NCBI RefSeq assembly: GCF_000336675.1
Contig: NZ_AOMB01000003.1
Location: forward strand, 62,001 to 126,000
Length of the DNA: 64,000 nt
Origin: Halococcus hamelinensis 100A6
GTDB lineage: Archaea; Halobacteriota; Halobacteria; Halobacteriales; Halococcaceae
Direction: 5' to 3'
The notes below the pieces were generated by a model. The model saw nothing but the letters and a program-made list of their open reading frames with translations. It did no database searches and had not been told where the DNA came from. The translations under genes and the position numbers were made by a program. Of this stretch, positions 13,320 to 28,739 are shown piece by piece (positions within the stretch are counted from its first letter, which is position 1; each line of letters opens with the position of its first letter).

Positions 13320-14315
13320 CTACGTCGCGGTAGTTTCGACGAGTCCGTCGATCGTCGTGTTGGCGCTCTCGGTCGCTGCACCCATCGAGGACTCACTCGT
13401 TCCGAGGTGTGTGGTACGAGCGGTCGGCATCGACGAGGCAGGCGTCCCGGTCTGCTGTCGCGCCTCGGAGAGCCACGCCGGCGTTTCGAGCTCGGTCGAG
13501 TCGGCGTTCTCCAGCGTGATATGAACACGGACGGAGTTGCCGCCGGTCGGATTCGGCCGCACAGCGACCAGATCGCGGGTGACACCCTGCTCGTCGATCG
13601 AGAGCCGGTAATCAGCGGAAATGTTCGACTCCGAGAGCGCCCCGGAAACGACGTGCCGCGGCGAGCCGTTCACCTGCTGGGTCTCGACCGAGGTATTGTT
13701 TCGTTCGGCATCCGGGAGATACGTCGAGAGCGTCGTCGCGCCGAGCGTTCCATCGGTCAGAACTGAGTCGCCCGCGGGTTGTGCGTAGGCGGTCGTCCCA
13801 TTTTGGTAGGTCTGGCGGACGTACGTCTCACCGTCCGTCGTCCACCCATCGAGGCGCGTGACGTTCGTACTGCCGGGGATCGAGCCCGTGTAGTTCGCAC
13901 TGAATCCGATACGCTCGCCGGATTGGGATTTGTGGATGGTCTGGTTGAGCGAGAAGACGATGGTGCCGTTCGGCGCGACGACGCTACTGTTCGCCCGCGT
14001 GATCGTCGAGTGATTCTCCAGATACGCGGTGTGTGCTCGGAGAAGCGCCCCGGAGTTGGTGACGCCCGCGCTCGTCAGGCCGGGCGCGAGTTGCTGGGCC
14101 GAACTCGTTGTTGACTGGTCCGTGGGGGCGTCGAGGGGCGTCACGGTCGAACTGTTTGTAACCGTCTGCTGGTCGCCGCTAGAGGCGACGGTCGAATTAG
14201 TAGTGTTCTGCTGGCCGCCGCCGAGGATGCCATTGCAGCCAGCGAGCGTGAGCATCGCGGCGAGCGCGAGAACGCCAGCGATTCGTTTCGTCTGTCGAGA
14301 GCGAGATCCAGTCAT
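13320..14315 (-). CDS. Secreted lipoprotein, haloarchaeal type
   Basis: A 331-residue protein beginning MTGSRSRQTKRIAGVLALA with a lipobox LAGC near residue 30, so probably lipid-anchored outside the cell; the RSRQTKR stretch before the hydrophobic core could suit Tat rather than Sec but has no clear twin-arginine motif. After it comes a threonine/serine/glutamine-rich linker and a body with many N-x-S/T sites (potential N-glycosylation). An upstream ATG at 14327 is also possible. No enzymatic motif is seen; binding or envelope function unknown. Confidence 0.75.
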   Translation of the reverse strand: MTGSRSRQTKRIAGVLALAAMLTLAGCNGILGGGQQNTTNSTVASSGDQQTVTNSSTVTPLDAPTDQSTTSSAQQLAPGLTSAGVTNSGALLRAHTAYLENHSTITRANSSVVAPNGTIVFSLNQTIHKSQSGERIGFSANYTGSIPGSTNVTRLDGWTTDGETYVRQTYQNGTTAYAQPAGDSVLTDGTLGATTLSTYLPDAERNNTSVETQQVNGSPRHVVSGALSESNISADYRLSIDEQGVTRDLVAVRPNPTGGNSVRVHITLENADSTELETPAWLSEARQQTGTPASSMPTARTTHLGTSESSMGAATESANTTIDGLVETTAT

Positions 14316-14413
14316 GGAGGTATCCACAGAAGAATGCCCCGGCTTCCCGGATAAATGCCGGTCGGATCGGGTTCGGAGAATAACTTATCTGAGTGGTCGT
14401 CCTATAGCGAATT

Positions 14414-14599
14414 ATGGCCAACTGGACACGCGGAGCTCGCGGCGAAGGACTTTATATGCTCGTGTGGGGGCTACTCACGCTCGCGTTCGTTCCGTTCGCC
14501 GGCTCGACCATTGGTATGGTGTTGGTTGGTATCTTCGGCCTCGCCTTTTGTTGGTACGGCGTTGGGATGGTTCGGTCGGACTCGCGGGCGCTTGCGTAG
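14414..14599 (+). CDS. Small two-TM membrane protein
   Basis: A 61-residue protein with hydrophobic segments at about 13-30 and 34-50 separated by the short GSTIGM turn. An AATAACTTATC box lies about 30 nt upstream of the ATG, fitting a leaderless haloarchaeal promoter. It is divergent from the lipoprotein gene. No family is recognised. Confidence 0.6.
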   Translation: MANWTRGARGEGLYMLVWGLLTLAFVPFAGSTIGMVLVGIFGLAFCWYGVGMVRSDSRALA

Positions 14600-14649
14600 C
14601 GTCTCCGACCCGGCGAAAATTGTATAGGATATGCCAGAACAGTGAGCGT

Positions 14650-15021
14650 ATGGATCGAGACGCGCTCGCCGAGCGGATTCGGGACTCGCTCCCTGATTTC
14701 GAGTCGGTGCTGATCGGCGTTCTCTGTCTCGGTGGGCTGTTGATCTTCCTCGATATACTCGGCATCGACGTTATCGAGAACATCCGCAACTCACAGGGCG
14801 GTGTCGTCTACTTCGTCTATCCAGTAACGATAGCATTGCTCTCGTATCTCATCGAGCGCTTCCGGGATGCCTTCGACGAACCCCACACGGCCGACGTTCC
14901 CGACCCGCTCGGCGACCGCGAGAGTGAAAGTGAGACCGAGGGCGACGAAAGTGAGGCCGAACCGGCGGCCGAGGAACGAACCGTCGAGTTCGCCCGCTCA
15001 CGGAACGACTCCTCGGAGTAA
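14650..15021 (+). CDS. Membrane protein with acidic C-terminal tail
   Basis: A 123-residue protein. The ATG at 14650 was chosen because the earlier open sequence is the end of the preceding gene region in another frame. Two TM segments (about residues 20-38 and 53-70) are followed by a highly acidic cytoplasmic tail (ESESETEGDESEAEPAAEE). An AATTGTATAGGATATG stretch upstream looks like a promoter. Unrecognised family; the tail is typical of halophile proteins. Confidence 0.62.
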   Translation: MDRDALAERIRDSLPDFESVLIGVLCLGGLLIFLDILGIDVIENIRNSQGGVVYFVYPVTIALLSYLIERFRDAFDEPHTADVPDPLGDRESESETEGDESEAEPAAEERTVEFARSRNDSSE

Positions 15022-15056
15022 GGATTCCTGCCGTCGCTACGACCTATCGGGGAACG

Positions 15057-15137
15057 ATGATTGGTGCCGCTGCCGGAATCGGGTTAATTCTCTTTGGCAT
15101 TGGCATCGTCTTCGTGAAATCGGCGGCGGATTCGTAG
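15057..15137 (+). CDS. Very small single-TM peptide
   Basis: A 26-codon frame encoding MIGAAAGIGLILFGIGIVF followed by a polar VKSAADS end: one clean TM helix with glycine-rich spacing. It starts 35 bp after the previous gene on the same strand. Such mini-membrane proteins are common in haloarchaea but poorly annotated. The frame also reads open upstream without a start codon, so chance cannot be excluded. Confidence 0.4.
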   Translation: MIGAAAGIGLILFGIGIVFVKSAADS

Positions 15138-15193
15138 CAACTTCGTCGAGAAATCGTGTCTGAGTCGTATAGCATCCATCCACCGGAGCTTAC

Positions 15194-15472
15194 TCACTCG
15201 GTATGGCCGCCCTCGAAAGAGAAGATTGTCCGCCGCGCCCACGCCGCGAGCTCAGCCCGACACCCCTTATCGAGCATTTCGCCCCTCCACGTCCATAGTT
15301 CGGGCTCGGCACCCAGCCCGCCCTGATTGTAGACGTCGTGCATGAGAGCGTACTCCGCCTGCGGGTGGGCGAGAATATCCACTCCAAGAACGGACGTGTG
15401 ATCGCTGATATTCAGCCGATTCTTCCGGGCTTGGTGGTCCACCGTGTCGGATTCTGTGGCGTTGGACTGCAT
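15194..15472 (-). CDS. Hypothetical protein
   Basis: A 92-residue soluble protein without recognised domains. It has a polar N-terminus, then HTSVLGVDILAHPQAEYAL and an aromatic/charged C-terminal half (GRGEM-like turn, RAELAAWARRTIFS). It precedes no obvious partner and lies just after (in transcription order) the small membrane gene ending at 15493, so it may be the last gene of that transcript. Function unknown. Confidence 0.6.
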   Translation of the reverse strand: MQSNATESDTVDHQARKNRLNISDHTSVLGVDILAHPQAEYALMHDVYNQGGLGAEPELWTWRGEMLDKGCRAELAAWARRTIFSFEGGHTE

Positions 15473-15492
15473 GGTGTGTAGTGCTCTCGGAG

Positions 15493-15690
15493 CTACGGCC
15501 GAGCGGTCAGATACCCCGCCGCGGTGAGCACTGCGAGCGCGGTCATGACGGCGAGCCCGATCGAGAGCGAGCTCGCCCCGCCGACGCCGGCGAGCGCGAA
15601 TACAGGCAAGAGGACGACCAGCCCGGCGGCCCCGAGAACGCTCGTCTCGGGGATCGAGAGCCCGCGCTGCTCGACGGGTTCGGGATTCAT
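15493..15690 (-). CDS. Small two-TM membrane protein
   Basis: A 65-residue protein with hydrophobic segments at about 17-35 and 39-60 after a polar start (MNPEPVEQRG). Its ATG overlaps the stop of the upstream regulator gene by 4 nt (ATGA), so the pair is translationally coupled. A membrane partner or target of that regulator is possible; no family is recognised. Confidence 0.62.
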   Translation of the reverse strand: MNPEPVEQRGLSIPETSVLGAAGLVVLLPVFALAGVGGASSLSIGLAVMTALAVLTAAGYLTARP

Positions 15691-16232
15691 ACTTCGGCCT
15701 CCGCTTCTATGTCCTCCGGGTTGGCCTCCTCCTCATCGTCGTCGAAGGTCGTGACGTTCGCCTCCGCCGAGAGATGAGTCCCGTTGACGAGGATCGGGTT
15801 CACGGCAATGTTCTCGGTCGCTAGCACGGGCTTGATCGTATTCCTATCGGGATGCTCGCGCTCGATCACCCCGACCTCGTAGAGAATATCGAGGTCGTCC
15901 GAGACATCCGAGTAGTTGCGATCGAGGTGACGAGCGAGCGCCCGCTGGGATTCGATCTCCACATCGGAGCCGAGGGCGTCGAGAATTTCCAGTCGCTTCT
16001 CGGTCATCACATCCCGAGCGTCCTCCCACGACAGTACCATCGGCCTCTCGTATCCGGCGGCGTTGAGCGCCGTCGAGAACAGGTGCGTGCGGAGGATGGC
16101 GTGGCTCTCCTCGTCCATCTCCGCCTCGGCGTACTGCTGGTCTATCGCCGACGCCCCCTTCTCTAGGAGCGTCGATTTCCCGGTGCTCTCGCTCGCTGGC
16201 TGGTCGTCCGCCGAGTCACTTGATTCGTCCAT
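15687..16232 (-). CDS. Winged-helix transcriptional regulator
   Basis: A 181-residue predicted DNA-binding protein. The N-terminal 40 residues are acidic and disordered. Residues about 80-140 form a winged helix: EKRLEILDALG, ESQRALARHLDRNYSDVSDD and LDILYEVGVIEREH. This resembles haloarchaeal HVO_A0114-like/MarR-type predicted regulators. It is coupled to a small membrane gene downstream. The acidic C-terminus (DDDEEEANPEDIEAEAEV) suits a haloarchaeon. Confidence 0.75.
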   Translation of the reverse strand: MDESSDSADDQPASESTGKSTLLEKGASAIDQQYAEAEMDEESHAILRTHLFSTALNAAGYERPMVLSWEDARDVMTEKRLEILDALGSDVEIESQRALARHLDRNYSDVSDDLDILYEVGVIEREHPDRNTIKPVLATENIAVNPILVNGTHLSAEANVTTFDDDEEEANPEDIEAEAEV

Positions 16233-16280
16233 ATGATAGGGCGATAGCCTATCGGTAAAAGAGTTGGGGAGATTGAGTGT

Positions 16281-16469
16281 TCATTGCCGGGTTTGCTCGT
16301 AGCGAGTTTCGCCGACAAAGCCGGCAATGAGCACGATGAGTCCGGCAAGAAACATGAGGGGGCCAAGCGTTCCGAGGATCGGCGCGGTGGCGGCGAACAT
16401 ACTGCCGGTGGTCATGAGTGTCGCACCCAATATCATCCATTTGATCTCGCGTACCGCTTCGCTGTGCAT
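16281..16469 (-). CDS. Small two-TM membrane protein
   Basis: A 62-residue protein from ATG at 16469 (a TTG start at 16484 would add five residues). Two hydrophobic segments, about residues 10-28 and 32-52, follow the basic-polar start MHSEAVREIKW; the end RYEQTRQ is polar. No family is recognised. Confidence 0.55.
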   Translation of the reverse strand: MHSEAVREIKWMILGATLMTTGSMFAATAPILGTLGPLMFLAGLIVLIAGFVGETRYEQTRQ

Positions 16470-16520
16470 GGGTTCGGTATCCAATGCCTACGAGAAACAG
16501 CCCTCGGATAGCCTCTCGAT

Positions 16521-16745
16521 TCACACACCGTGGGTGGAGTTCCTGATTCCGAGGTGGGCGAACACGAATAGAGTAGCGAGAAACCACACCCCGACCACGC
16601 CGTTCACAAGGGCGCTTGGAAACCCGGCAACGAGTATCGAGAACGCGGCCATGATGACCGCGACCACGGTCAGCGATTTGTAGACACGGACGAAATTTGC
16701 CTTCGTTAGTACCCGGTCGGACGAAACAGCGCGGTTAGTCGTCAT
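16521..16745 (-). CDS. Small two-TM membrane protein
   Basis: A 74-residue protein from the ATG at 16745, with a basic N-terminus (TKANFVRVYKS) and two hydrophobic segments at about residues 24-42 and 46-65. The longer frame to 16772 was not used because it would leave no room for the TATATA promoter-like stretch just upstream. No family recognised. Confidence 0.55.
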   Translation of the reverse strand: MTTNRAVSSDRVLTKANFVRVYKSLTVVAVIMAAFSILVAGFPSALVNGVVGVWFLATLFVFAHLGIRNSTHGV

Positions 16746-16812
16746 ATATAGCGCTCTAGAACGCACAACCATGAGTCTTCAGGCGGCGCTGTGGCGACTC
16801 TCGGTGGTTTAA

Positions 16813-17173
16813 TCGACAAAACACCTCGTGGGTTGCTCTGAAACCGAGTCTGGTAGTTGAAGGCCAGATGGCCGTAGTAATTGCAAAACCTCGGGGGTTG
16901 CTCTGGAACAGGTGTCGAGTAGGACGATGTGGCCGCGTCGGTGGTTGCAAAACCTCAGTGGGTTGCTCTGGAATTGTATTCCAATCAGCAGTGGTATGAA
17001 ACTGCCTCTCGCAATTGCAAAACCTCAGTGGGTTTCTCTGGAAGTGGGACTACGGCGCACCTCATAGGGATTTAGCTTCTTTCAAGACCTCGTGGGTTGC
17101 TCTGGAACAAGTCCCTCGGAGGTCAGCACCATCCCATCGTTGCTGTTTCAAGACCCTCCGGTTGCTCTGGAAC
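16813..17173. CRISPR. Degenerate CRISPR-like repeat array (6 units), no cas genes nearby
   Basis: Six related about 30-nt repeats start near 16813, 16880, 16944, 17014, 17079 and 17145. The shared core is ACCTC(G/A)(G)TGGGTTGCTCTGG, preceded by TTGCAAA or TTTCAAG and followed by AAC. Core-to-core distances are 65, 64, 70, 65 and 66 nt, leaving unrelated 34-40 nt spacers, as in type I-B haloarchaeal arrays. ACC...GGT can pair as a small hairpin. The first and last units are the most diverged. No cas gene is in the window and the repeats differ from each other, so this looks like a decaying orphan array; another kind of interspersed repeat is possible. Confidence 0.6.
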
Positions 17174-17258
17174 ACTCGCTCGTTCGGCCGCCGTTTTGGT
17201 ATATCTTCGGGTCGCTCTCGGAGTGGGATATTTCACGTCCCACGTACAATTATCTCGT

Positions 17259-17456
17259 ATGGAGATCCGGGGACGCTCGCTCCGAAATCGTGTGTTCAAT
17301 GCCGTGTTCGCCACTGTGCTCATGTTTATCGGCGCGAGTCTCGCCGAGGGCTCGCTTAACTGGACGCTCCTACTGATCGGCGTGCCGTTGCTACTCGTCC
17401 TCGAACTGCTCGGTGACGTCCTCGGTCGACGCATCCGGGAGTGGCGAGCATCATGA
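17259..17456 (+). CDS. Small two-TM membrane protein at head of the paralogue array
   Basis: A 65-residue protein (MEIRGRSLRNRVFNAVF start) with two hydrophobic segments at about 13-30 and 34-52 and a basic end (GRRIREWRAS). The ATG at 17259 follows the CRISPR-like array by 85 bp. Its stop overlaps the next ATG (ATGA), so it is co-translated with the first paralogue-family member, although its own sequence is shorter and not clearly related to the family. Confidence 0.65.
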   Translation: MEIRGRSLRNRVFNAVFATVLMFIGASLAEGSLNWTLLLIGVPLLLVLELLGDVLGRRIREWRAS

Positions 17457-17746
17457 GCACTCGGATCGCCGGTATCCCGACGCTGTATCTCTACAACGGG
17501 TCGATTATCGCCTACGGCGGCGCGTTCTTCCTCGACAATCTGACCGCGATTCTCGACGGAACCGCTGGGCTCGCGGAGCAAGTCGCTGTGTTTGCTGCGG
17601 CGCTGTTGGTCGTCATTGGGGGCTACGAACTACTCACGAACGACCCCGCCGAGTACGATGCTGATACCCCCATCGTCGCGTTGCTGGTCGTCGGGGCGAC
17701 ACTAGTGCTGGCCAGCTACGCGATCGAGTTTCTCGCGTTGGGCTGA
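17453..17746 (+). CDS. Tandem-array small membrane protein, member 1
   Basis: A 97-residue protein with about four TM segments. It shares with later members an N-terminal LYLYNG-type motif (LYLW.G elsewhere) and the loop GYELLTNDPAEYDADTP, matching W.VR..NPAEFSKSAYW in members 6 and 8. A GTG 12 nt upstream is in frame but the ATG overlaps the preceding stop (ATGA) and is favoured. Family function unknown; an integral membrane protein in the cytoplasmic membrane. Confidence 0.72.
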   Translation: MSTRIAGIPTLYLYNGSIIAYGGAFFLDNLTAILDGTAGLAEQVAVFAAALLVVIGGYELLTNDPAEYDADTPIVALLVVGATLVLASYAIEFLALG

Positions 17747-17790
17747 GGCTCATACTGTGGATTTAAGCCTCGACACGCAAAGGCGAGAGT

Positions 17791-18081
17791 ATGGAACAGA
17801 ACGCGGGGCGCTTCTCTCCCTCGATCGAATACGGGTTGGTGATCGTCTTCGCCCTCATGGGTGTCGCCGTCGTGGGCTCGGGTGCTCTCGGTTTCTATCT
17901 CGGTATCACGGCCCTCTCGAATTACGTGCTCGTGACGGCCGGACTCGTGATGGTCGGGACGACGGCCTTCGAGATCGTCACTGGCGACCCCGGCAGATAC
18001 ACGGGGACGAACGGCTGGATCATCGCTCTCGTCGTAATGGCGATGGTGTCGTTGGCTGCGATCGCGCTACAATTCCTCTAA
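17791..18081 (+). CDS. Tandem-array small membrane protein, member 2
   Basis: A 96-residue protein with four predicted TM segments. The third loop reads FEIVTGDPGRYTGTNGW, in the same place as the NPAEF/DPAEY loop of the other members, so it is a divergent paralogue. Its upstream region has a GATTTAAGCC box about 30 nt before the ATG instead of the TTGTGGGATG element, so its control may differ. Function unknown. Confidence 0.72.
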   Translation: MEQNAGRFSPSIEYGLVIVFALMGVAVVGSGALGFYLGITALSNYVLVTAGLVMVGTTAFEIVTGDPGRYTGTNGWIIALVVMAMVSLAAIALQFL

Positions 18082-18101
18082 ATCCACGACGTCCGGCGCG
18101 A

Positions 18102-18115
18102 CTTTTTGTGCGATG
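18102..18115 (+). promoter_or_regulatory. Array promoter element (weak match)
   Basis: CTTTTTGTGCGATG ends 18 nt before the ATG at 18133. It is the most diverged copy of the element found before members 4-7 and the 25.2-kb copy, but has the same spacing. Confidence 0.5.
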
Positions 18116-18132
18116 CCGGGGCAACTCTCGAT

Positions 18133-18423
18133 ATGCTCGGTATTCTCGATCGACTCTCGCTCGAACCACTGTATCTGTGGGTCGGGCTCGTTCTCGGCGT
18201 CGGTGGGGCTGGCATTTTGTACGGCGTGCTCTTTCTCCGTGGGGCCGGCTCGCTGGCCGTCGGGGCCTGCCTGCTGGTCGGCGGCGCGCTCAACATCCTG
18301 CTCGCCGTCCGCGAAGGACTGTCCCGCGTTCCCGACGAGCTCGGCCTTCGGGAGTGGGCGACGATCGCCGTTTCCGCTGTAGTCTCGATCGGTGTCGCCG
18401 TCGGGCTCGTCTTCGGGGCCTAA
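18133..18423 (+). CDS. Tandem-array small membrane protein, member 3
   Basis: A 96-residue membrane protein starting MLGILDRLSLEPLYLWVGLV, clearly sharing the DRL...LYLW.GL start with members 4-7. Three to four hydrophobic segments follow, but the acidic/aromatic loop after segment 3 is changed to REGLSRVPDELGLREW. The ATG at 18133 is favoured by the 18-nt spacing to the shared upstream element. Function unknown. Confidence 0.72.
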   Translation: MLGILDRLSLEPLYLWVGLVLGVGGAGILYGVLFLRGAGSLAVGACLLVGGALNILLAVREGLSRVPDELGLREWATIAVSAVVSIGVAVGLVFGA

Positions 18424-18435
18424 ACTGTCGCCGGT

Positions 18436-18449
18436 ATTTTTGTGGGATG
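18436..18449 (+). promoter_or_regulatory. Array promoter element
   Basis: ATTTTTGTGGGATG, preceded by GTCGCCGGT, ends exactly 18 nt before the ATG at 18467. It covers the -31 to -18 zone where a leaderless haloarchaeal promoter places its TATA box. Confidence 0.6.
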
Positions 18450-18466
18450 CCGCTTGATGGGTCGGT

Positions 18467-18769
18467 ATGAGCGAGACGATCGACCGCCTGCCGATTCCCC
18501 GACTCTACCTCGGACTCGCTCCAATATTGCTCGTTGGTGTGGTCTATACCCTCGCCGGCGTCGTGGCGTTCCTGACGAATACGGAACCGGCGTATGGGTG
18601 GATGATCCCCGTGTTCGGAGTGCTGTTCCTCGGGATTTCCGGCCACAAGCTCTACACGACCTCGCCCGACGACGACTCGGTAGCGGACTACTGGATCGTG
18701 CTCCAGTATTTCTTCGCGGTCGTTCTGCTGGTGTCGTATGCGAGCGGTGCCGGCCTGATCAGTCTGTAG
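18467..18769 (+). CDS. Tandem-array small membrane protein, member 4
   Basis: A 100-residue protein with four TM segments, starting MSETIDRLPIPRLYLGLAP. The loop after segment 3 (HKLYTTSPDDDSVADYW) corresponds to R.RNPAEFSKS.YW of members 6 and 8. It is preceded by the shared promoter element. Probably an integral cytoplasmic-membrane protein; no catalytic residues are visible. Confidence 0.75.
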   Translation: MSETIDRLPIPRLYLGLAPILLVGVVYTLAGVVAFLTNTEPAYGWMIPVFGVLFLGISGHKLYTTSPDDDSVADYWIVLQYFFAVVLLVSYASGAGLISL

Positions 18770-18793
18770 TCGACGAGAGCGTTCGTCGCCGGA

Positions 18794-18807
18794 ATTTTTG
18801 TGGGATG
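18794..18807 (+). promoter_or_regulatory. Array promoter element
   Basis: ATTTTTGTGGGATG with upstream GTTCGTCGCCGGA ends exactly 18 nt before the ATG at 18825. The sequence is nearly identical to the copy at 18436. Confidence 0.62.
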
Positions 18808-18824
18808 GCAAGCAAACCCGAGCT

Positions 18825-19118
18825 ATGAGCAATCTGGTCGACCGACTCCCGATGCCCCAACTCTACCTCCAGTCGGGAATGATGGCCCTCGGCGGTCTTC
18901 TGCTTGGCCTGCTTGGCGTTCTCTTTTTACTGGATGGGGAGGATTACTGGTGGGCGATAGCCCTCATGGGTGGAAGCAACGTTTTCGGTGGAGCGGCGAT
19001 GCACTACGAATACGATCCCACCGAGTATTCGATCGGAAACAGATGGCTTGCGTTCGCGTTCGGTGCTCTCGTCGTCGAGCTCGCACTGTTCGTTTTCGTA
19101 GCGCTCGCATTGGTGTGA
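18825..19118 (+). CDS. Tandem-array small membrane protein, member 5
   Basis: A 97-residue four-TM protein starting MSNLVDRLPMPQLYLQSGMM. The conserved loop reads MHYEYDPTEYSIGNRWLA. An in-frame TTG at 18798 would add nine residues, but the equivalent upstream frame carries a stop codon in members 4 and 7, so the ATG is the common start and the upstream sequence is regulatory. Function unknown. Confidence 0.75.
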   Translation: MSNLVDRLPMPQLYLQSGMMALGGLLLGLLGVLFLLDGEDYWWAIALMGGSNVFGGAAMHYEYDPTEYSIGNRWLAFAFGALVVELALFVFVALALV

Positions 19119-19142
19119 GAAATCGGCGCGTTCGTCGCTGGG

Positions 19143-19156
19143 ATTCTTGTGGGATG
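19143..19156 (+). promoter_or_regulatory. Array promoter element
   Basis: ATTCTTGTGGGATG with upstream GCGTTCGTCGCTGGG ends exactly 18 nt before the ATG at 19174. Confidence 0.62.
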
Positions 19157-19173
19157 GAAGACAACGTTTGGAT

Positions 19174-19473
19174 ATGTCGACGACTACTGAGCGGTTCCCG
19201 GTCGACCGACTCTACGTCTGGTCGGGCCTCATGGCCGTCATTGGACTCTCGACTCTGTTGAGTAGCGCGGCGAGCATTCTCGCGGGCTCGGGGAGTATCG
19301 GCAACTGGATGATGGTCGTCGGTGGCGGAGCACTGGTGTTCGTCGTGGGCTGGGAAGTTCGCCACCGTAACCCGGCGGAGTTCTCGAAAAGCGCCTACTG
19401 GTTCGTCGTTCTCGCGTTTGCTGCTCTGCTCTCGCTCCTCGGCTCCCTCATGACGGTTCTTTCCTTTCTCTAA
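19174..19473 (+). CDS. Tandem-array small membrane protein, member 6
   Basis: A 99-residue four-TM protein starting MSTTTERFPVDRLYVWSGLM. It is closest to the dispersed copy at 25178: both share SILAGSG, NWMM.VGGGALL and R.RNPAEFSKS.YWFV blocks and end in LLSFL-like hydrophobic sequence. This pair suggests a relatively recent duplication and movement. Function unknown. Confidence 0.78.
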   Translation: MSTTTERFPVDRLYVWSGLMAVIGLSTLLSSAASILAGSGSIGNWMMVVGGGALVFVVGWEVRHRNPAEFSKSAYWFVVLAFAALLSLLGSLMTVLSFL

Positions 19474-19493
19474 AGCGCGCGTTCGCCGGGTGG

Positions 19494-19507
19494 ATTCTTG
19501 TGGGATG
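19494..19507 (+). promoter_or_regulatory. Array promoter element
   Basis: ATTCTTGTGGGATG with upstream GCGTTCGCCGGGTGG ends exactly 18 nt before the ATG at 19525. Confidence 0.62.
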
Positions 19508-19524
19508 GTCGATAAACCCGAGGT

Positions 19525-19824
19525 ATGGCGACTGTTGTCGAACGGTTGCCGGTTGAACCGCTCCACCTCTGGGCGGGGCTAACAGGAATAACCGGGCTCG
19601 CGGTCTTGGTGAGCAGCACGGTGAGCCTTCTCGCCGGGGTAGGCTACTTCTTCAACTGGCTCATGATCGTCGCCGGCCTGTCGATGGTACTCGGCATGGC
19701 ATGGGTCATTCGTCACCCCGACTCAGCGGAGGTCTCGACGAGCAGCTACCAGCTCGCCTTTCTCGTTGTCTGTGCGGTAGTGGCGGTCGGGGCTACTCTC
19801 CTCCAGATCCTCACGTTGGCGTGA
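19525..19824 (+). CDS. Tandem-array small membrane protein, member 7
   Basis: A 99-residue four-TM protein starting MATVVERLPVEPLHLWAGLT. The conserved blocks SSTVSLLAGVG, FNWLMIVAG and the loop IRHPDSAEVSTSSYQLAF mark it as a family member. The in-frame upstream codons contain a stop, which confirms the ATG. It is the last gene of the array. Confidence 0.77.
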   Translation: MATVVERLPVEPLHLWAGLTGITGLAVLVSSTVSLLAGVGYFFNWLMIVAGLSMVLGMAWVIRHPDSAEVSTSSYQLAFLVVCAVVAVGATLLQILTLA

Positions 19825-19891
19825 GCTCTCGCAAGCGTCCGCACGTCCGTTCTCGTCGCCACGTTCGCCGGGGGCGAAGAAATCCACGTGC

Positions 19892-20110
19892 CTAATTGGA
19901 TGTCGAGCGCCGAGTAGAGCGCCTCTCGGAGTAGATGACCACCGCCGCGAACGTGAGCGCGCCGACGACCGTCGAGACGTCGACCGCTTCGGCGAGAGTA
20001 TCGCCGAAGACCACACCAAAGAGCGCTGCCGTGAGTATCCACGTCACAAACGCTAGTGCTCCAAGCAGCCACGGGCTCTCGAACTCGGTCCACTCGTTGA
20101 GCGTGGTCAT
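19892..20110 (-). CDS. Small two-TM membrane protein
   Basis: A 72-residue protein: polar start MTTLNEWTEFESPWL, two hydrophobic segments (about 14-33 and 44-60) and a basic end (YSERRSTRRSTSN). It lies 13 bp downstream of the truncated gene at 20124 on the same strand, so it was probably part of the same transcript. No family recognised. Confidence 0.6.
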   Translation of the reverse strand: MTTLNEWTEFESPWLLGALAFVTWILTAALFGVVFGDTLAEAVDVSTVVGALTFAAVVIYSERRSTRRSTSN

Positions 20111-20123
20111 TTCTCTGTCTCGC

Positions 20124-21140
20124 TTAGAGGTGCGAGCCGATAGGGTTGTAATCTTTGTTCTCGGGTTCGAACTCCGCGAACGTCTCCGTGCTCGTCCCGG
20201 CGTCGAGTTCCGTGACGGTCGTATCCCGAAGCCGGAGGTAGTGATAGTTGATTCTGGCTTTCACGCGCCCGGACATCGAGGCCCGCCGGGACTCGCGCGG
20301 GTCGTGAAAGGCCACGCTATACCCCACGCAGATGCCGTCCCGGAGGTCCTCTCCCACCTCGTACTCCAGTTCGTCGAGTGAGCACTCGTAGTGCTCACCG
20401 TGAGCGGTGTCGATCTCGTGGTCGCCGAGTACGTCCGCGGGCTCGGTGGTGATCCGACTGTAGCTCCCGGCGTCCGTCCCGCTCACGCGGATATACTGTT
20501 CGTCGCTCCCCTCGAAGGCGATCCGGTGAGAGGTCGATGAGCGGCCCTCGTAACTCGTCGCCCGGAGATCGAGGTAGGTCTCGGCGTCGGCGAGCAGGGT
20601 TGTCATGCCCTCGATCACGTGCTCGGTCTCCTCCTCGATACTGATGGGGCCGACGTCCGCTCTCGGGGGCTCGTAGTCGTCGTGGTCGGGCTCGTGTACG
20701 GTCTTGGTGGTGAACAGAAAGTCGCCGTCGGGCGCGCGGAGGACGAACCCCTCGACGCCACAGGCGATCAGGGTGAGGTCGTCGGCGCTGTAGCGTCCGC
20801 CGCCGGTGGCGAAGCGGACGGCCATCTCGACGAGCCAACTGTTGATACCCAGCCCGTAGCCCGAACTGAGGGTGGTGATCATGCCGACGTAGGTGGGGAA
20901 GTCGTCCATCGCGGTGTAGGTCGCGGGGATCTCTAGCTCTCGGTCGGCGTGCTCGTCGAGGTAGTCCTCAACGCCTTCGACGATGAGGCCGCCCTGTTGA
21001 TGGGCGAGGTAGCGCCCGTCGAGGCTAATATCGCCGTCGGGGAAGACGAGTGTGAGCGACCCCGTTCCGGTCGTGGGCTCGCCTTCCCACGCGAAGTCGC
21101 GCTCCGGGAGCGAGAGCTCGGCGAGCGGGTTAGTTTGTCG
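20124..21140 (-). pseudogene. Haloarchaeal hypothetical protein lacking its 5' end
   Basis: The frame is open from 21164 down to 20124, and the part upstream of the first ATG (20909) reads as ordinary coding sequence, for example LTLVFPDGDISLDGRYLAHQ and ELEIPATYTAMDDFPTYVG, with normal haloarchaeal codon bias. Yet no ATG, GTG or TTG occurs between 20909 and the in-frame stop at 21165-21167. The start has therefore been lost, most simply by insertion of the lower-GC block that begins near 21140. A shortened 261-residue product from 20909 is possible. The family and function are not recognised. Confidence 0.65.
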
Positions 21141-21205
21141 ATAAAACCTACCTGGACTCGCTTTTCAACGAGTGCAGCGATGTATCCTACAGACGCTCTA
21201 CCGAA

Positions 21206-22012
21206 TCAGAAATCGCTCGGTAAGTTTAGTCCAATTTCCTCAGGATCGACCTGCCTTTGCTCCCACTTCTTATGATGGTCGCAGCAGATAGTTAGGAGAT
21301 TGGCAAGCTGATTCCCATGCTCGTCGATCGTCATGCTATCCTGGTAATAGAACCATTCCCGAGGAACGAGATGATGAACGTGCAAGTCTACCCCGTGATG
21401 CATTCTCCGATGCTCATCTCGCGAACGGCCACAATCAACGCAAACGCCTCCATCTCGTTCAATAGCCTTCTCCCGTTGTTTGTACCACCCTCCTCCGATC
21501 GGTATGTAGTCTATACCTTCCTTTCGAGCGGTTTTCTTAGGCCCCTGTCCCTGGGAATGTGGAGAAAAACCGGCTTTCAACACTCCTTCTCTCCACGACC
21601 CGAACACGTTCCGCACTGTCGATTGACACGGAAAACTATTATCTGTTCGTGACCAGCGGTCCATCTCCCTTGCTGTTGGAGCCCCGTCTCGATCTATCTC
21701 TTTGTGAAGCCGCTGGATCTTAGCAAGGAGCTGTTCCTTCCGATGCTCATCTACTGTAATCCCTGGCTTATTCGGGTCTAAGCCACATTCTTTGATTGCG
21801 TTGTTCCATGACCCGAAGTGCGATTTGTATGTTGCCGGACTCGCTGTGTAGGGATATTGTTTCATCTGGTGACAGGTGGGTGTTTCATCTAGGTCTTCGG
21901 CTACTTCCTGCAACCGATTTAACAAGCCCTCATCAGTATAGTTTATAACTGTTTTATCAGCTTTTTGCCGTCGCTTGGCAGCTTCAAGTCTATCCCAGTC
22001 TATGTCTCCCAT
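21206..22012 (-). CDS. HNH endonuclease with two homing-endonuclease-associated repeats
   Basis: A 268-residue protein. Two similar about 50-residue repeats come first (near 25-80 and 95-155); each ends in a FGSW..A/GV..AG or ECG motif (HFGSWNNAIKECG, VFGSWREGVLKAG), as in homing-endonuclease-associated repeats. The C-terminus has CVDCG (about 190), HVHHLVPREW (about 212) and a closing NLLTICCDHHKKWE, a canonical HNH zinc nuclease. Sequence is clearly lower in GC than the flanks. ATG 22012 is preferred to 22033 because the first operator copy lies between them. Likely a mobile or self-propagating nuclease. Confidence 0.88.
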   Translation of the reverse strand: MGDIDWDRLEAAKRRQKADKTVINYTDEGLLNRLQEVAEDLDETPTCHQMKQYPYTASPATYKSHFGSWNNAIKECGLDPNKPGITVDEHRKEQLLAKIQRLHKEIDRDGAPTAREMDRWSRTDNSFPCQSTVRNVFGSWREGVLKAGFSPHSQGQGPKKTARKEGIDYIPIGGGWYKQREKAIERDGGVCVDCGRSRDEHRRMHHGVDLHVHHLVPREWFYYQDSMTIDEHGNQLANLLTICCDHHKKWEQRQVDPEEIGLNLPSDF

Positions 22013-22036
22013 ACCATACGGCAACTGACGCATGGT
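22013..22036. promoter_or_regulatory. Operator copy 1 (24-bp imperfect palindrome)
   Basis: Arms ACCAT and ATGGT flank ACGGCAACTGACGC. It is 20/24 identical to the copy at 22048 and lies immediately before the HNH start codon. Candidate binding site for the adjacent wHTH protein (inference). Confidence 0.6.
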
Positions 22037-22047
22037 ACTTGGTTCTT

Positions 22048-22071
22048 ACCATTCTGCAACTGCCGAATGGT
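22048..22071. promoter_or_regulatory. Operator copy 2 (24-bp imperfect palindrome)
   Basis: Arms ACCATTC and GAATGGT are perfect reverse complements around TGCAACTGCC. Start-to-start distance to copy 1 is 35 bp. It lies between the divergent HNH gene and the wHTH gene at 22124. Confidence 0.65.
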
Positions 22072-22123
22072 CAAAAATCCGGTAGTTATACCACTTCACG
22101 CCGGCCAGCGAGTTGCAGAGACG

Positions 22124-22366
22124 ATGGTTGGTAAAGACCGGGATGAATCGAGCGGCGAATACGAGGACACATACTCAGAGCAAGCATTTCTCGATGCGAT
22201 TTCTGAACTCAATGGTGGTGGAACCCGAGAAATCGCTGACCGGATTGGTTGCCACCGAGATACAGCACGCAGACGACTCAATACGCTTGCTGAAGAAGGA
22301 GTAGTTGAACGCCGAGATGTTGGTGATGCCGCTTTTTGGACCATTAGAAGTTCCAACAGTAGCTGA
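22124..22366 (+). CDS. Small winged-helix DNA-binding protein
   Basis: An 80-residue protein. Residues about 20-75 form a winged helix: EQAFLDAISELNGGGTREIA, then DRIGCHRDTARRRLNTLAEEG and the wing VVERRDVGDAAFWTI. The acidic 20-residue N-terminus is probably disordered. The ATG at 22124 was chosen because upstream in-frame sequence crosses the operator region. Divergent from the HNH gene with two operator copies between, so it is probably the local repressor (inference). Confidence 0.75.
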   Translation: MVGKDRDESSGEYEDTYSEQAFLDAISELNGGGTREIADRIGCHRDTARRRLNTLAEEGVVERRDVGDAAFWTIRSSNSS

Positions 22367-22668
22367 AATTCCGGATTATGTTATGAGAGCTACTACTAAG
22401 CGAAGGTAATTGTATGGAATATCGTGTTACGCTAGCTGAGGCTGACGGCAGCCACTGAACTGCGTGAGAGAGCACGAGGGCTCATCACACATCTGTGGGT
22501 TCCTAAAGCGGTATCTGGCACGCTGAACAATGATGGCGGACTAGGGGCCGACCTCTCTTTATTTATTTTGCAAGTCTGCATTAATATTGAGGAACGACGG
22601 GTTACTAAGTGCGACGCGAATATATGACCTGTAGATAGTTTTATTGATGTCTAGTTCGAAAGGGCAGC
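22367..22668. other. Gene-poor interval inside the mobile block
   Basis: About 300 bp with lower GC. A short frame at 22414 (MEYRVTLAEADGSH then stop) and an adjacent frame (TELRERARGLITHLWVPKAV) look like remnants of a gene, but no family can be named. TTTTATTG at about 22640 may be a promoter box for the gene at 22669. Confidence 0.35.
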
Positions 22669-23190
22669 ATGGCAGAAGATGCACCGGGTGCTAAGGCGTG
22701 GAAAGAGCATACCAGCGCATTCGACCGAGTACGGTCAGTCGTCGAAACCGCCTCTCAACCCCGCTCCGCTTCGGAGATCGCCAACGAAGCTCTGGTTGCG
22801 GAGAACACGGCGCGTACCCACCTCAATCGACTCACCGACATGCACGTCTTGGTAGAACTCGATCGCGACGGGACAACCCTCTATACTCCTGATCCACTGT
22901 ATCAGCGAGCGCAGACCATACGGGAACTCCTCGACGAGTACGACCACGAGGGTCTCATCGAGCTCAAAGAGGATCTGCTGGAGCAAATCGAGGCCTGGGA
23001 AAGGAGCTTCCACGTGACGTCACCCGAAGGTCTTCGCGAACGGGCAGCACAAGCTGACCAAGTCGACCAGACCAAGGAGATCCGGACTGCTGCAAGCGAC
23101 TGGGAACTCGTTGTCCATCGTCTATCGATCGTCGAGGATGCGATCAAGAATTATGCCACGTACAGTCGAGACACGAGGGCCCTAGCGTAG
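22669..23190 (+). CDS. HTH regulator, possible antitoxin partner
   Basis: A 173-residue protein resembling haloarchaeal DUF7342-type regulators. Residues about 15-75 are a winged helix: FDRVRSVVETASQPRSASEI, ALVAENTARTHLNRLTDM and HVLVELDRDGTTLY. The C-terminal part is helical and charged. It precedes the next gene by 3 nt, so the two are coupled. In archaeal two-gene cassettes a HTH protein often serves as antitoxin and repressor for the downstream protein; this role is inferred. Confidence 0.75.
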   Translation: MAEDAPGAKAWKEHTSAFDRVRSVVETASQPRSASEIANEALVAENTARTHLNRLTDMHVLVELDRDGTTLYTPDPLYQRAQTIRELLDEYDHEGLIELKEDLLEQIEAWERSFHVTSPEGLRERAAQADQVDQTKEIRTAASDWELVVHRLSIVEDAIKNYATYSRDTRALA

Positions 23191-23193
23191 GCG

Positions 23194-23625
23194 ATGGATG
23201 GGGTTGATTCATATGATTCGGCAGCAGCCTCTCATCGCGCCCTCCGAGGTATCAGACGCGAGCTTGAACGTCACCCGATGATTTTGACGGCGCAAGGATT
23301 TCCCTCTGACACTCATACTCGCGTCGTCGCAGAGTTGAATCCCCACCAACTCACCGAGAGTATTTCAGAAGCGACGCTCACGGTGCGATGGTTCGCTGGC
23401 GAAACGTCCGAGGCACCTCCCGAGTTCTCGTTCCACTATGCTGACGAAACAGGACAGGATTTCGGATGGCATCATGAACCGAACCCTCATGTCGAAGAGT
23501 GGGGACATTACCAAGAGCGCGAGATGGCGGGCTCTGAGTACTCCTACGAGTCACGGACGTTCTCATCGATGAACCCGAGTCGTGTCGTCTGGGAGGTGCT
23601 GGCGCTTCTCGATTCCAAGACGTGA
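23194..23625 (+). CDS. Possible TumE/DUF6516-like toxin
   Basis: A 143-residue protein directly behind a HTH gene. Central sequence EFSFHYADETGQDFGWHHEP and the following HVEEWGHYQERE resemble the H/R/D-rich region of TumE (DUF6516) toxins, where FHY-D and a second His-rich segment recur. The N-terminal half has LTVRWFAGE strands. Family assignment is from pattern only; it might instead be an uncharacterised partner of DUF7342 regulators. The first 25 residues are polar and unrelated to the core. Confidence 0.55.
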   Translation: MDGVDSYDSAAASHRALRGIRRELERHPMILTAQGFPSDTHTRVVAELNPHQLTESISEATLTVRWFAGETSEAPPEFSFHYADETGQDFGWHHEPNPHVEEWGHYQEREMAGSEYSYESRTFSSMNPSRVVWEVLALLDSKT

Positions 23626-23673
23626 ATTCCACTGCATGGTGGACATTCCTACGGATTCTACGACCAATCCATT

Positions 23674-23871
23674 ATGACTGAACAGCACCGAATCATATTG
23701 ACTGAGGGCGACACCGGGTACTGGACTGCACGAGAGGAGCCAAGTGGTTTCACCACGTATGGTACGACTCTTGAAGCGGCGCTTAGTGCATTGGATCATG
23801 ACAATGAACCAGAAGTTTATCCTGATGCTTCCTCGGTCGCGGTTGGCGGGAGATCGACACGGAGCGTGTAG
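23674..23871 (+). CDS. HicB-like antitoxin, truncated at its C-terminus
   Basis: A 65-residue protein whose first 45 residues (RIILTEGDTGYWTAREEPSG then TTYGTTLEAALSALD) follow the HicB-like pattern of strands and a helix. After DHDNEPEVY the sequence becomes unlike HicB because the frame runs into the antisense of the next gene (23817-24695, overlap 55 bp). The helical or DNA-binding end expected for HicB is missing and no HicA partner is present, so it is an orphan, probably broken at the edge of the inserted block. Confidence 0.55.
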   Translation: MTEQHRIILTEGDTGYWTAREEPSGFTTYGTTLEAALSALDHDNEPEVYPDASSVAVGGRSTRSV

Positions 23872-24695
23872 ACGCCACCGGGCTCGAAGGTCCTGATGTT
23901 GGCGTCGATGAACGTCTGGTTGGCCTCGCTCGTCGGGGACCACACCGGACCGGGCTTCTCGTAGCTCGCGAGAGTGAGCGTCACCGGGTCTGCACCCTCG
24001 GCGATCCGGAAGCTCACACGCGCAGTCCCGTTGCTCATTACGACTATATCGGAGCTCTCGACCGCGCTCGCGAGCGTATCGTTCGTGGTAAATTCACCAT
24101 CCGAAGACCGTTTGAGGGTGTTCTCGGTGCTCCCGTGGGCGTAGCGGATCAGTTTGTCCGGGGTGTAGTAATTCGACGGCGGGTGACGAAGGTTCTCGAT
24201 CGCTTCACCCTGCACGAAGTCGATCTGATAGTGGGTTGCGTTTGCTTCCGAGCTCTCCGATTCGGTAGCGGTAGAAGTCTCGGAGGTGGCCGTCTGGGCC
24301 GACGTGTTCAACTGTAGCGAGCGGAGCATCCGATTGCCGAGCGTAGTAGGATTCTCGTCCCCATCAGTCGCGACCTGGACGGTTGCGACGTGCTGCTCGA
24401 CGTTCGTCACCTGGATACTACTCGCCTGCACCCGTTTGGCGTCGACCGTCCGCACGAGCGCGTTCTCTAATTCACCCTTCTGATAGGCTCCGTTGTACGA
24501 AATCTCGTACGTGAGCAATCCCTCGGTCTGATTGATCAGGTCGATGCTGCTCACGCTCATGGGGCCGGCGTCCCCACCGGCTCCTGTTCCAATACTCTGA
24601 CTTGTGTCTCCCTGGGGATTAATCTGAAACCCAATGAGAGCCGCCGAAACGATGAGTACGGCCACTACGGCCCAAACTGCAACTCTCTTACGCAT
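23817..24695 (-). CDS. Membrane-anchored exported protein
   Basis: A 292-residue protein with an N-terminal membrane anchor or signal (MRKRVAVWAVVAVLIVSAAL) and a polar extracellular body rich in N-x-T/S sites. The end TLRVDLPPTATEEASG is reached just at the boundary of the inserted block. There is no lipobox cysteine. No domain is recognised. High GC and codon use match the core regions, unlike the DNA to its right in transcription direction. Confidence 0.72.
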   Translation of the reverse strand: MRKRVAVWAVVAVLIVSAALIGFQINPQGDTSQSIGTGAGGDAGPMSVSSIDLINQTEGLLTYEISYNGAYQKGELENALVRTVDAKRVQASSIQVTNVEQHVATVQVATDGDENPTTLGNRMLRSLQLNTSAQTATSETSTATESESSEANATHYQIDFVQGEAIENLRHPPSNYYTPDKLIRYAHGSTENTLKRSSDGEFTTNDTLASAVESSDIVVMSNGTARVSFRIAEGADPVTLTLASYEKPGPVWSPTSEANQTFIDANIRTFEPGGVYTLRVDLPPTATEEASG

Positions 24696-24756
24696 TAACA
24701 GATAGCCCTCTTACATTCGGCTTAAGCTTAATCAACACACGTCAGCGGAATATCAG

Positions 24757-25101
24757 TTATTCGCGAAGATACTCGAGAATCACATCGCCATGACACGGCT
24801 TCGGTTTGCACCAACAGGCGAGCGTCCGTCCGCGTAGGTCCTCGACGGCCTCGCGGAACGCTTCGTCCTGGTCGACCCGAGCGAGAAAGTCCTCGCGGTA
24901 GTTGGCGATCGACTCCTCGCGAGAATAGTCCGATACCGGATAGGGATTCCCGAGCCACCCCGGCTCGCCGATCTCGGTGTTCATCATGTGGCTCGTCCCG
25001 CCGTCTGCTCGCCCAATATCGACGTCGTAAGCGTCCGTGTTCCGCTGGTTCACGAGTCGGGTCTGAATCTCGCCGGTGAGCGTGGTCTGTTTCTCGGTCA
25101 T
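24757..25101 (-). CDS. DUF4326-family protein
   Basis: A 114-residue soluble protein with the DUF4326 hallmarks EPGWLGNPYPVSDYSREESI and RTLACWCKPKPCHGDVILEY; the closing CWCKPxPCHGD motif could bind metal or nucleic acid. The family is of unknown function, common in phages and archaea. It stands alone, divergent from the small membrane paralogue at 25178. Confidence 0.82.
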   Translation of the reverse strand: MTEKQTTLTGEIQTRLVNQRNTDAYDVDIGRADGGTSHMMNTEIGEPGWLGNPYPVSDYSREESIANYREDFLARVDQDEAFREAVEDLRGRTLACWCKPKPCHGDVILEYLRE

Positions 25102-25146
25102 ATGTTATCTGTATTGTTAGTAGCGACTCAGATATTCGTGGGTCAG

Positions 25147-25160
25147 ATTCTTGTCGGATG
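25147..25160 (+). promoter_or_regulatory. Dispersed copy of the array promoter element
   Basis: ATTCTTGTCGGATG ends exactly 18 nt before the ATG at 25178, the same spacing as in the 18-19.5 kb array 6 kb away. Confidence 0.6.
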
Positions 25161-25177
25161 GAATACAAACGTCTCGT

Positions 25178-25477
25178 ATGTCGACCGCGACAGAACGATT
25201 CCCGATTGATCGGTTCTACATCTGGATGGGCTTAATGGCCATTATTGGGCTCTCGATCATAGTAAGTAGCGTGGCGAGCATCCTCGCAGGTTCGGGAGGT
25301 TTCTGGAACTGGATGATGATCGTCGGCGGCGGAGCATTGCTGGTTATGGCGGGCTGGGAAGCCCGACAGCGCAACCCGACGGAGTTCTCAAAAAGTGATT
25401 ACTGGTTTGTCTTCCTCGCGCTCGCCGCCCTGCTCTCGGTCGTCGGCTCCGCCCTAACGCTTCTCTCGTTCCTGTAG
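25178..25477 (+). CDS. Dispersed member of the small membrane-protein family
   Basis: A 99-residue four-TM protein starting MSTATERFPIDRFYIWMGLM. It is closely similar to the array member at 19174 along its full length (SILAGSGGFWNWMMIVGGGA; RQRNPTEFSKSDYWFVFLA). It lies outside the array, beyond the mobile block, and keeps the shared upstream element, so gene and promoter moved or duplicated together. Function unknown. Confidence 0.78.
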   Translation: MSTATERFPIDRFYIWMGLMAIIGLSIIVSSVASILAGSGGFWNWMMIVGGGALLVMAGWEARQRNPTEFSKSDYWFVFLALAALLSVVGSALTLLSFL

Positions 25478-25570
25478 AACTCACGTTCGCACGCATCTTC
25501 TCGCCCTCAACTACGAAGGTATACTGCTGAAAGGCGCACTAACGTCCCAACAGTTCTCTCTAACAGTTGT

Positions 25571-25957
25571 TCAACGCTCGATCTTCCTGACGACTGTTGC
25601 TACAAACAGGGCTACGAAGAACGCGCCAAGAAAACTCTCTATTGCCGTCACCACCTGCACAAAGATATCCAACTCGCGCGTTGCTATTCCTGGGATGAAC
25701 GACGTGAAGGACTGAACGCTCAAGAGCACGTTGTCCAAATCAAGATACAAGCTAGCGCCAGTGAGCGGTACCTCACCCCTAACCCAGAATTCAGAGGTTC
25801 TTCCTATGATCCAATTAAGTAGCAAAAAGAAGATACCGATCGTTGCGACAGACCAGCCGAACACCCGTAGAGAGCTCTCTCCATAAACAACCACGGTGAC
25901 TGTAGTCTCGATTTTCTGAATCGACTTATCAGTAATTAGGAGGTTTGTAGAAATCAT
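25571..25957 (-). CDS. Ion-channel-like membrane protein without selectivity filter
   Basis: A 128-residue protein. One TM segment (VFGWSVATIGIFFLLLNWII), then an amphipathic loop and the C-terminal helix VVTAIESFLGAFFVALFVAT. This end is typical of two-TM potassium-channel (Ion_trans_2) domains, but the pore position reads QSFTSFIPGIATRE in place of TxGYGD. It is therefore a divergent or defective channel fragment. Coupled to the upstream Bat-like regulator (TGATG overlap). The N-terminal 20 residues are unlike the family and may mark a fusion. Confidence 0.6.
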   Translation of the reverse strand: MISTNLLITDKSIQKIETTVTVVVYGESSLRVFGWSVATIGIFFLLLNWIIGRTSEFWVRGEVPLTGASLYLDLDNVLLSVQSFTSFIPGIATRELDIFVQVVTAIESFLGAFFVALFVATVVRKIER

Positions 25958-26616
25958 CACGGGTTGCTGACAACTCGATGAACGAGAGCGGCCTCTGCTT
26001 TGCGGAGGTGTTCGGCCGCTGTCCCAGGAGCACAGTTGAGACGGTCGGCGACGTCAGCGACCCCAGATTCACGGGGTGATTCGTAATACCCAATCTCGAT
26101 CGCGACAGTTACCGCTTCAGATTGGCGGTCGCTGAGAGCATTTGCGGCATCCATTCGGCTGGCATCGTACTGACCGACACGCTGGACGTCGACATCAACG
26201 CTAGCTGGAGCTTCGTCGAGTGCCTGCTGGAGGGAAGAGGCTGTCCCGACGACAGTGAGTCCTATCCTGCGGTCGCTACGAAATTCGATCGGAGGCATCA
26301 CGACGAGGCTTCCATGGGTGAATGCGTTGGTCAGACGTTGTGCTCCCGCGTCGAGGCGTTCGCGCACGTAGAGATAGAACGCATTCTCCTCAGCCGGTAC
26401 TATCTCGTGGTCTAAAATCGTGCTCACGTCTTCGAGAGCGGACTCATACGGACCGGGTGGCCCCTCAGCGTAGAATATCATCGTGTTCGTCTCACCGACA
26501 GCAGGATTCCATTGCAGAAGTCGATATGAGCTGTATTCGTCGTGTTCGGCGACGAACTCGTGCATCGGATGGATGATCTCCTCACTCTGGTCGAGACACA
26601 ACTGGAGATACTTCAC
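25957..26616 (-). CDS. Bat-type HTH transcriptional regulator
   Basis: A 219-residue regulator. The N-terminal 150 residues are of the type seen before HTH_10 (bacterioopsin-activator) domains in haloarchaea. The C-terminus has ALSDRQSEAVTVAIEIGYYE, SGVADVADRLNCAPGTAAEH and LRKAEAALVHRVV, the canonical HTH_10. Co-translated with the channel-like gene and divergent from NuoCD 115 bp away; either could be its target (inference). Confidence 0.85.
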   Translation of the reverse strand: MKYLQLCLDQSEEIIHPMHEFVAEHDEYSSYRLLQWNPAVGETNTMIFYAEGPPGPYESALEDVSTILDHEIVPAEENAFYLYVRERLDAGAQRLTNAFTHGSLVVMPPIEFRSDRRIGLTVVGTASSLQQALDEAPASVDVDVQRVGQYDASRMDAANALSDRQSEAVTVAIEIGYYESPRESGVADVADRLNCAPGTAAEHLRKAEAALVHRVVSNP

Positions 26617-26730
26617 ACCAAGCCATCAGTCTCCTCATTTAAACAACCCTCACCAGAGAGGCAGAACGCGCTCGCCGGCAGCCTTCCAATGCCCAGCTAT
26701 CGTTCGGCTATCAGAATCAACGATTCCACA

Positions 26731-28386: not shown

Positions 28387-28410
28387 GAGAAGATTGAAGA
28401 GGGGTAGCTG

Positions 28411-28575
28411 TCACTCAATTTCAGGAATAAAGATATTCTCGATAGTACAGTCGAAGTGGCAAGCAAGTTCGAACGCGAGCTCCAACGATGGATTGTATCG
28501 CCCTCGTTCGATTGCGTTGATGGTCTGCCGACTCACTCCGACAGCCCCCGCCAGCTCGCCTTGGCTGAGGTTCAT
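28411..28575 (-). CDS. XRE-family HTH regulator, 5'-truncated
   Basis: From the ATG at 28575, 54 residues: [40 protein letters not shown] and the end ENIFIPEIE, a classical small Cro/CI-type HTH. Related proteins start about ten residues earlier, and the expected sequence (DLPQRRDA) is present upstream in frame but without a start codon, because it is joined to another gene fragment. It may still be translated from the internal ATG, which overlaps the stop of that fragment (ATGA). Confidence 0.65.
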
Positions 28576-28739
28576 TGCGTCACGCCGCTGCGGAAGGTCA
28601 CTGCTGCAAGACCCGATAAGAACGCACCCGCTACTGGACGAGCGATTTCTTGGAGTGCTTCTTCCATCTCCCGCTCGAGAATGTTCTGATACGAAAGAGA
28701 TGCGCTGGATGGTTCATCACTCCCTGTTTCGGTACTCAT
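28572..28739 (-). pseudogene. N-terminal fragment of a formate/nitrite-type transporter
   Basis: A 55-codon frame: [40 protein letters not shown] and LSGLAA. Haloarchaeal FNT-family transporters begin in this way, with a cytoplasmic acidic start and the first TM entry LSGLxAG. After SGLAA the sequence switches abruptly to the XRE gene in another frame (VTFRSGVTQ, stop). The fusion point is near 28605. All other TM segments are missing, so it cannot transport. Confidence 0.65.

Follow-up and report, generated by a model that had tools for sequence, protein, structure and literature searches.

Membrane proteins of the SMR type, represented by EmrE, consist of about 100 residues, are often encoded in tandem pairs, and contain four helices together with a membrane-embedded glutamate. 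The array described here, located in the window (the entire stretch of 64,000 nucleotides of Halococcus hamelinensis 100A6 that was analysed), also encodes proteins of similar size in tandem, which, however, have three helices and no conserved glutamate in helix 1. Foldseek searches with two structural models of the family against the PDB and viral models gave no match, an EmrE mutant being reached with an E value of 3.8 only, and a PDB sequence search gave none for the family. Pfam DUF1304 (PF06993) shows weak similarity to two relatives of the array proteins (E = 0.002 and 0.019), with scores of 18.5 and 15.4 bits that fall under the cut-off of 26.9, and is matched by no window member. In Pfam, NCBIfam, PHROGs and PADLOC, sub-threshold matches only were obtained, with no curated family above its cut-off, and no papers on the family were found in the literature.

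The array proteins belong to an undescribed haloarchaeal family, which usually occurs as a single copy in other haloarchaea. The single-copy relatives, annotated as hypothetical proteins (e.g., WP_094579926.1) in Natrialba taiwanensis, Natrinema hispanicum, Halorubrum distributum, Halonotius aquaticus and others, are related to the array proteins by profile, are of the same length class with three helices, and carry an N-terminal RLYxY and a DPxEF loop. They differ from the array in being usually encoded by one copy, in having an N-terminus shorter by about 9 residues, in having neither the shared promoter-like element nor the two-helix partner gene, and in forming a separate clade (98/97), outside which the array members fall. 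Tandem expansions are familiar among small membrane proteins; the family itself is uncatalogued, and haloarchaea thus gain a family of small membrane proteins with a candidate shared promoter and an overlapping partner gene.

Members of the array and their predicted fold

All eight family genes of the window, that is, the seven consecutive genes for 96–100 residues and the further copy at 25178 pointed out in the sequence-only reading, are open on the + strand. They comprise g1 (17453..17746, 97 residues), a three-helix protein of the same subfamily as G005a and C25; the divergent g2 (17791..18081, 96 residues) and g3 (18133..18423, 96 residues); g4 (18467..18769, 100 residues), with orthologues on C33 and in G005 (89% and 84% at the amino acid level, respectively); g5 (18825..19118, 97 residues), with relatives on C30 and in G006; g6 (19174..19473, 99 residues); g7 (19525..19824, 99 residues), with an orthologue on C33 (83% at the amino acid level); and the distal g8 (25178..25477, 99 residues), where C25, C30 and C33 are other contigs of the genome and G005 and G006 other species. 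The gradation from clear to divergent homology described earlier is reflected in the identities to the g6 protein, which are 71% for g8 and 20–38% for the others. Because hydrophobic proteins align easily, homology was tested with profiles built without the subfamily of the tested protein, against 200 shuffles keeping the composition of each TM/loop segment. The scores of g1–g8 were 31–96 bits with shuffle maxima of 8–21 bits, the divergent g2 and g3 reaching 36 bits (maximum 15) and 31 bits (maximum 8), so that the relatedness extends well beyond shared hydrophobicity; as judged from these profiles, the eight proteins are homologous to one another. Outside the window, C33 carries two further family matches and C30 one, and C25 adds a divergent one, which brings the genome to about 12 in total.

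Family members are about 90–100 residues long, and their three glycine-rich membrane helices are connected by two loops, of which loop 1 is short and loop 2 is acidic, with 9 residues (D/N-P-x-E-F/Y). In the AlphaFold2 model of g6, for which the eight window sequences were the input, the predicted helices span residues 12–36, 42–64 and 74–98 (pLDDT 86, pTM 0.74), and the model of a widespread relative (pLDDT 90, 16 aligned rows) has the same three. The count of four transmembrane helices made from the letters is accordingly to be lowered to three, and the (D/N)PxE(F/Y) loop, formerly placed after the third helix, sits between helices 2 and 3; g3, g4 and g7 carry a degenerate form of its motif. 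The LYLW.GL start ascribed to the array genes holds for part of the set, being absent in g2 (17791) and variant in the genes at 18467, 18825 and 17453. The positive-inside charge bias of the members favours no single topology. No conserved catalytic residue or catalytic motif was found, in agreement with the initial impression that no enzyme motif is visible. That the proteins are small pore, channel or transporter subunits differing in specificity is suggested by their small, glycine-rich, three-helix build and by the sequence divergence of the paralogues, but appears unlikely, as the family alignments contain no conserved charged or polar residue within the helices, no fold match to any channel was obtained, and the SMR-type four-helix fold with its membrane glutamate is absent.

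Distribution of the family and selection

A profile search of haloarchaeal genomes, proposed in the sequence-only reading, revealed a broad family that is mostly a lone gene per genome. Of the 392 genomes searched in the order, 84 had a match at E ≤ 1e-4, and a count made from the output gives 49 at E ≤ 1e-9; carriers include Natrialba, Natrinema, Halonotius, Halorubrum, Halogranum, Haladaptatus and Haloprofundus, and the matching genomes nearly always have one or two copies, mostly one. The lone gene, being the ordinary state of the family elsewhere, offers a simple entry point to its function. On plasmids, matches were confined to four records of Halorubrum and Haladaptatus, all of the single-copy type. 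A match in G007 (E = 4.8e-4), contained in a 242-residue frame, was judged false.

In the tree, one branch (98/97) separates the array-type proteins of the genus from all other relatives, the long branches of g2, g3 and C25 calling for caution. A short DNA match to Halococcus dombrowskii (82%) is in line with Halococcus, or a close neighbour of it, as the genus. Within the genus, array-type genes were found in G005 and G006 as well as in the window species, several subfamilies recurring in sister species, and most genomes of the genus are without them; G004, of the same genus, has a single-copy-type gene that groups with the broad clade. Judging from this tree and distribution, the array is a lineage-specific expansion that forms a genus-restricted branch beside the broad family. 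With a broad-family profile from which the window rows were omitted, g1, g2 and g5–g8 scored clearly above the shuffles, g4 was marginal (8.9, shuffle maximum 6.7), and g3 (9.8) was below its shuffle maximum of 14.1; it is the array profile that ties g4 (60 bits) and g3 (31 bits) to the family.

The Ka/Ks comparison, likewise proposed beforehand, indicates purifying selection in the ortholog-level pairs, for which dN/dS by Nei–Gojobori is 0.12 (g4/C33a), 0.17 (g4/G005b), 0.21 (g6/g8), 0.29 (g7/C33b) and 0.23–0.28 in the g5 subfamily (g5 versus C30, 0.28; versus G006, 0.24), with bootstrap upper limits <0.55; values between subfamilies are near saturation and uninformative. The argument for function drawn from the retained frames is strengthened by these low ratios, by the intact frames of the array, and by the subfamilies shared with sister species. 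Frame breakage is not the rule in close relatives, in which the genes are mostly absent. Two relict copies were seen, one in G005 (G005:C5), where the promoter-like element is kept and the reading frame is cut after about 23 residues, and a second copy in G006 (G006:C8), which has lost its N-terminus.

Patchy presence, lineage-specific expansion and relict copies might be expected of an immunity or defence repertoire, in which each three-helix protein guards the membrane against a different toxin (e.g., a halocin) or virus; such a role would favour tandem copies that diversify and are gained and lost, and would also suit the accessory-gene surroundings with IS elements and regulators. It is nevertheless improbable in our view, given that selection between orthologues is purifying, not diversifying, that no recognised toxin adjoins the array, and that no match was obtained with the PADLOC models of known anti-phage defence systems, with PHROG, or for the family in the viral contigs searched.

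Promoter-like element, two-helix genes and probable recombination

Most members are preceded by a 13-nt element, TTYTTGTSGGATG, whose first nucleotide is exactly 30 nt upstream of the start codon. In the window, it is located on the + strand at 18103..18115 before g3 (12/13 match), at 18437..18449 before g4 and 18795..18807 before g5 (both TTTTTGTGGGATG), at 19144..19156 before g6 and 19495..19507 before g7 (both TTCTTGTGGGATG), and at 25148..25160 before g8 (TTCTTGTCGGATG), in every case 30 nt before the ATG. It is also present at −30 with 12–13 of 13 positions before C33b and C30 and, in other species, before the G006 gene and G005b (12/13), and a weaker copy lies upstream of the two-helix gene of G005; it is absent before g1, g2, G005a and C33a. 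The 3.4-Mb genome has 8 exact sites, 7 of which are found at the 30-nt distance from family genes; the remaining one falls within a reading frame resembling a DNA methyltransferase gene and was rejected as a chance occurrence. If one mismatch is tolerated, the genome contains 12 sites, 8 of them at family genes (reversed control, 4), and a 12/13 match arises in shuffled 60-nt upstream regions about once in 10,000.

The 30-nt spacing to the ATG fits a leaderless promoter, the type from which 72% of the coding transcripts of Haloferax volcanii are produced (PMC4983044), and the element probably is a shared leaderless promoter. It (TTYTTG) matches the haloarchaeal TATA box, given as TTWT (PMC4983044), and BRE motifs poorly. 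Its likeness among the tandem copies may be kept partly by recombination, although it is also retained before members that stand alone on other contigs or in other species. The common promoter-like element supports co-expression of the array genes, which would fit a multi-subunit or jointly regulated set without naming its role.

In two species (L136, L137; G008:C29, G005:C25), a fourth thermosome-type gene, beside acetamidase/formamidase-like genes, also has the element upstream. If the element were a common stress promoter, the array would encode stress-inducible membrane proteins of the heat-shock type, as might be read from its position 42 nt upstream of the extra thermosome gene in G008 (13/13) and, for the orthologue in G005 (12/13), 50 nt upstream of its matched start. 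We give little credence to this explanation: the thermosome link is post hoc; roughly one site of this kind is seen per genome with no connection to the family; the standard thermosome genes of the genus have ordinary TATA promoters without the element; and the extra gene adjoins genes resembling amidases. A single regulon comprising the thermosome promoters and the array is suggestive only.

The array is preceded by g0 (17259..17456, + strand), encoding a two-helix membrane protein of 65 residues, and its reading frame ends in a 4-nt overlap with that of g1, formed by stop and start codon (ATGA). Array-type genes are also preceded by a homologue of g0 on C33 (about 50% identity), on C25 (an internally deleted remnant) and in G005 (G005:C4), with the overlap recurring on C33, degenerate on C25, and replaced by a short gap in G005. 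The wider haloarchaeal family of g0 was found in 18 of 293 genomes, in which no member outside the genus adjoins three-helix genes; the neighbours of the single-copy three-helix relatives include no recurrent partner beyond close relatives, and the neighbourhood of neither family is conserved outside the genus, so that the partnership may be local. A convergent two-helix gene (19892..20110, − strand; 72 residues) closes the cassette, and its homologues occupy the same relative place on C33 (two copies) and C25.

Collinear homologous blocks of the window segment 14353–20293 and, further along, of 25942–28608 are present on C33, where the cassette is a shortened paralogous version with only two family members, the orthologues of g4 and g7. 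At the first junction, the two-helix gene is joined to the start of g4 at a shared TGAGC; the second lies in the promoter repeat (corresponding to the element before g7), between g4–g5- and g6–g7-type sequence. Both junctions are at sequences common to array genes, a pattern expected from recombination between array repeats, and the size of the array probably changes by recombination at the shared start and promoter sequences, a process of which the paralogous cassette is a record. Loss on C33 rather than gain on C3 is favoured by the occurrence of g1-, g5- and g6-type genes in other species. A neutral or selfish accumulation, in which recombination and IS elements spread a duplicated cassette that serves no joint function, would agree with the three cassettes in one genome, the IS-like transposases around C33, and the two relicts in a genus most of whose species are missing array-type genes; we consider it doubtful, because dN/dS is low in several independent pairs, subfamilies are common to several species, and the promoter position is conserved.

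Proposed role and surroundings of the array

Taken as a whole, the best explanation combines expansion, a shared promoter, a recombining array and accessory subunits, and we assign to it a probability of about 0.4. Most array genes would be transcribed singly and leaderlessly from the common promoter and thereby be co-expressed, and the array would grow and shrink through recombination between the repeated start and promoter sequences. The proteins would be non-enzymatic, small accessory subunits that use their glycine-rich helices to pack against one another or against the two-helix proteins, and the packed subunits may tune a larger envelope function, which is the weakest step of the proposal. 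Co-expression and the overlap with the two-helix gene favour such subunits of a membrane assembly, and it is, with modest confidence, most likely that the array proteins are small co-expressed accessory subunits of this kind. We further speculate, as a rather remote extension of the proposed accessory-subunit role, that one family-specific sequence serves both as promoter and as site of recombination in a modular array of small membrane proteins, with close relatives thus carrying different co-expressed subunit sets of a hetero-oligomeric envelope complex.

Several features surround the array. Directly 5′ of it, at 16814–17174, are six degenerate repeats of ~29 nt (e.g., TTGCAAAACCTCAGTGGGTTGCTCTGGAA) at 64–70 nt spacing with unrelated sequence between them, which look like a relict CRISPR array; no cas genes adjoin the repeats, which were not found elsewhere in the genome, and Rfam gave no match in the window at 14000–28000. 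The segment 14650–17456 before the array contains further genes for predicted small membrane proteins of 60–125 residues (at 14650, 15493, 16281, 16521 and 17259), most of which are present in the C33 copy too. Downstream, a gene with homing-endonuclease-associated HNH repeats is located at 21206–22033 in a low-GC stretch, and at 22669–23625 a DUF7342 helix-turn-helix gene is followed 4 nt on by a gene for 143 residues, an arrangement resembling that of toxin–antitoxin pairs. The NADH-dehydrogenase CD-type gene at 26731–28386 occurs three times in the genome, in the window, on C33 (91% DNA identity) and on C22 (78%), and is spanned by a duplicated segment that C3 and C33 have in common. Finally, another family of small membrane proteins (HGT...PRxW) is encoded near three-helix genes in two species (L029:8908–9234 and L032:6536–6805).
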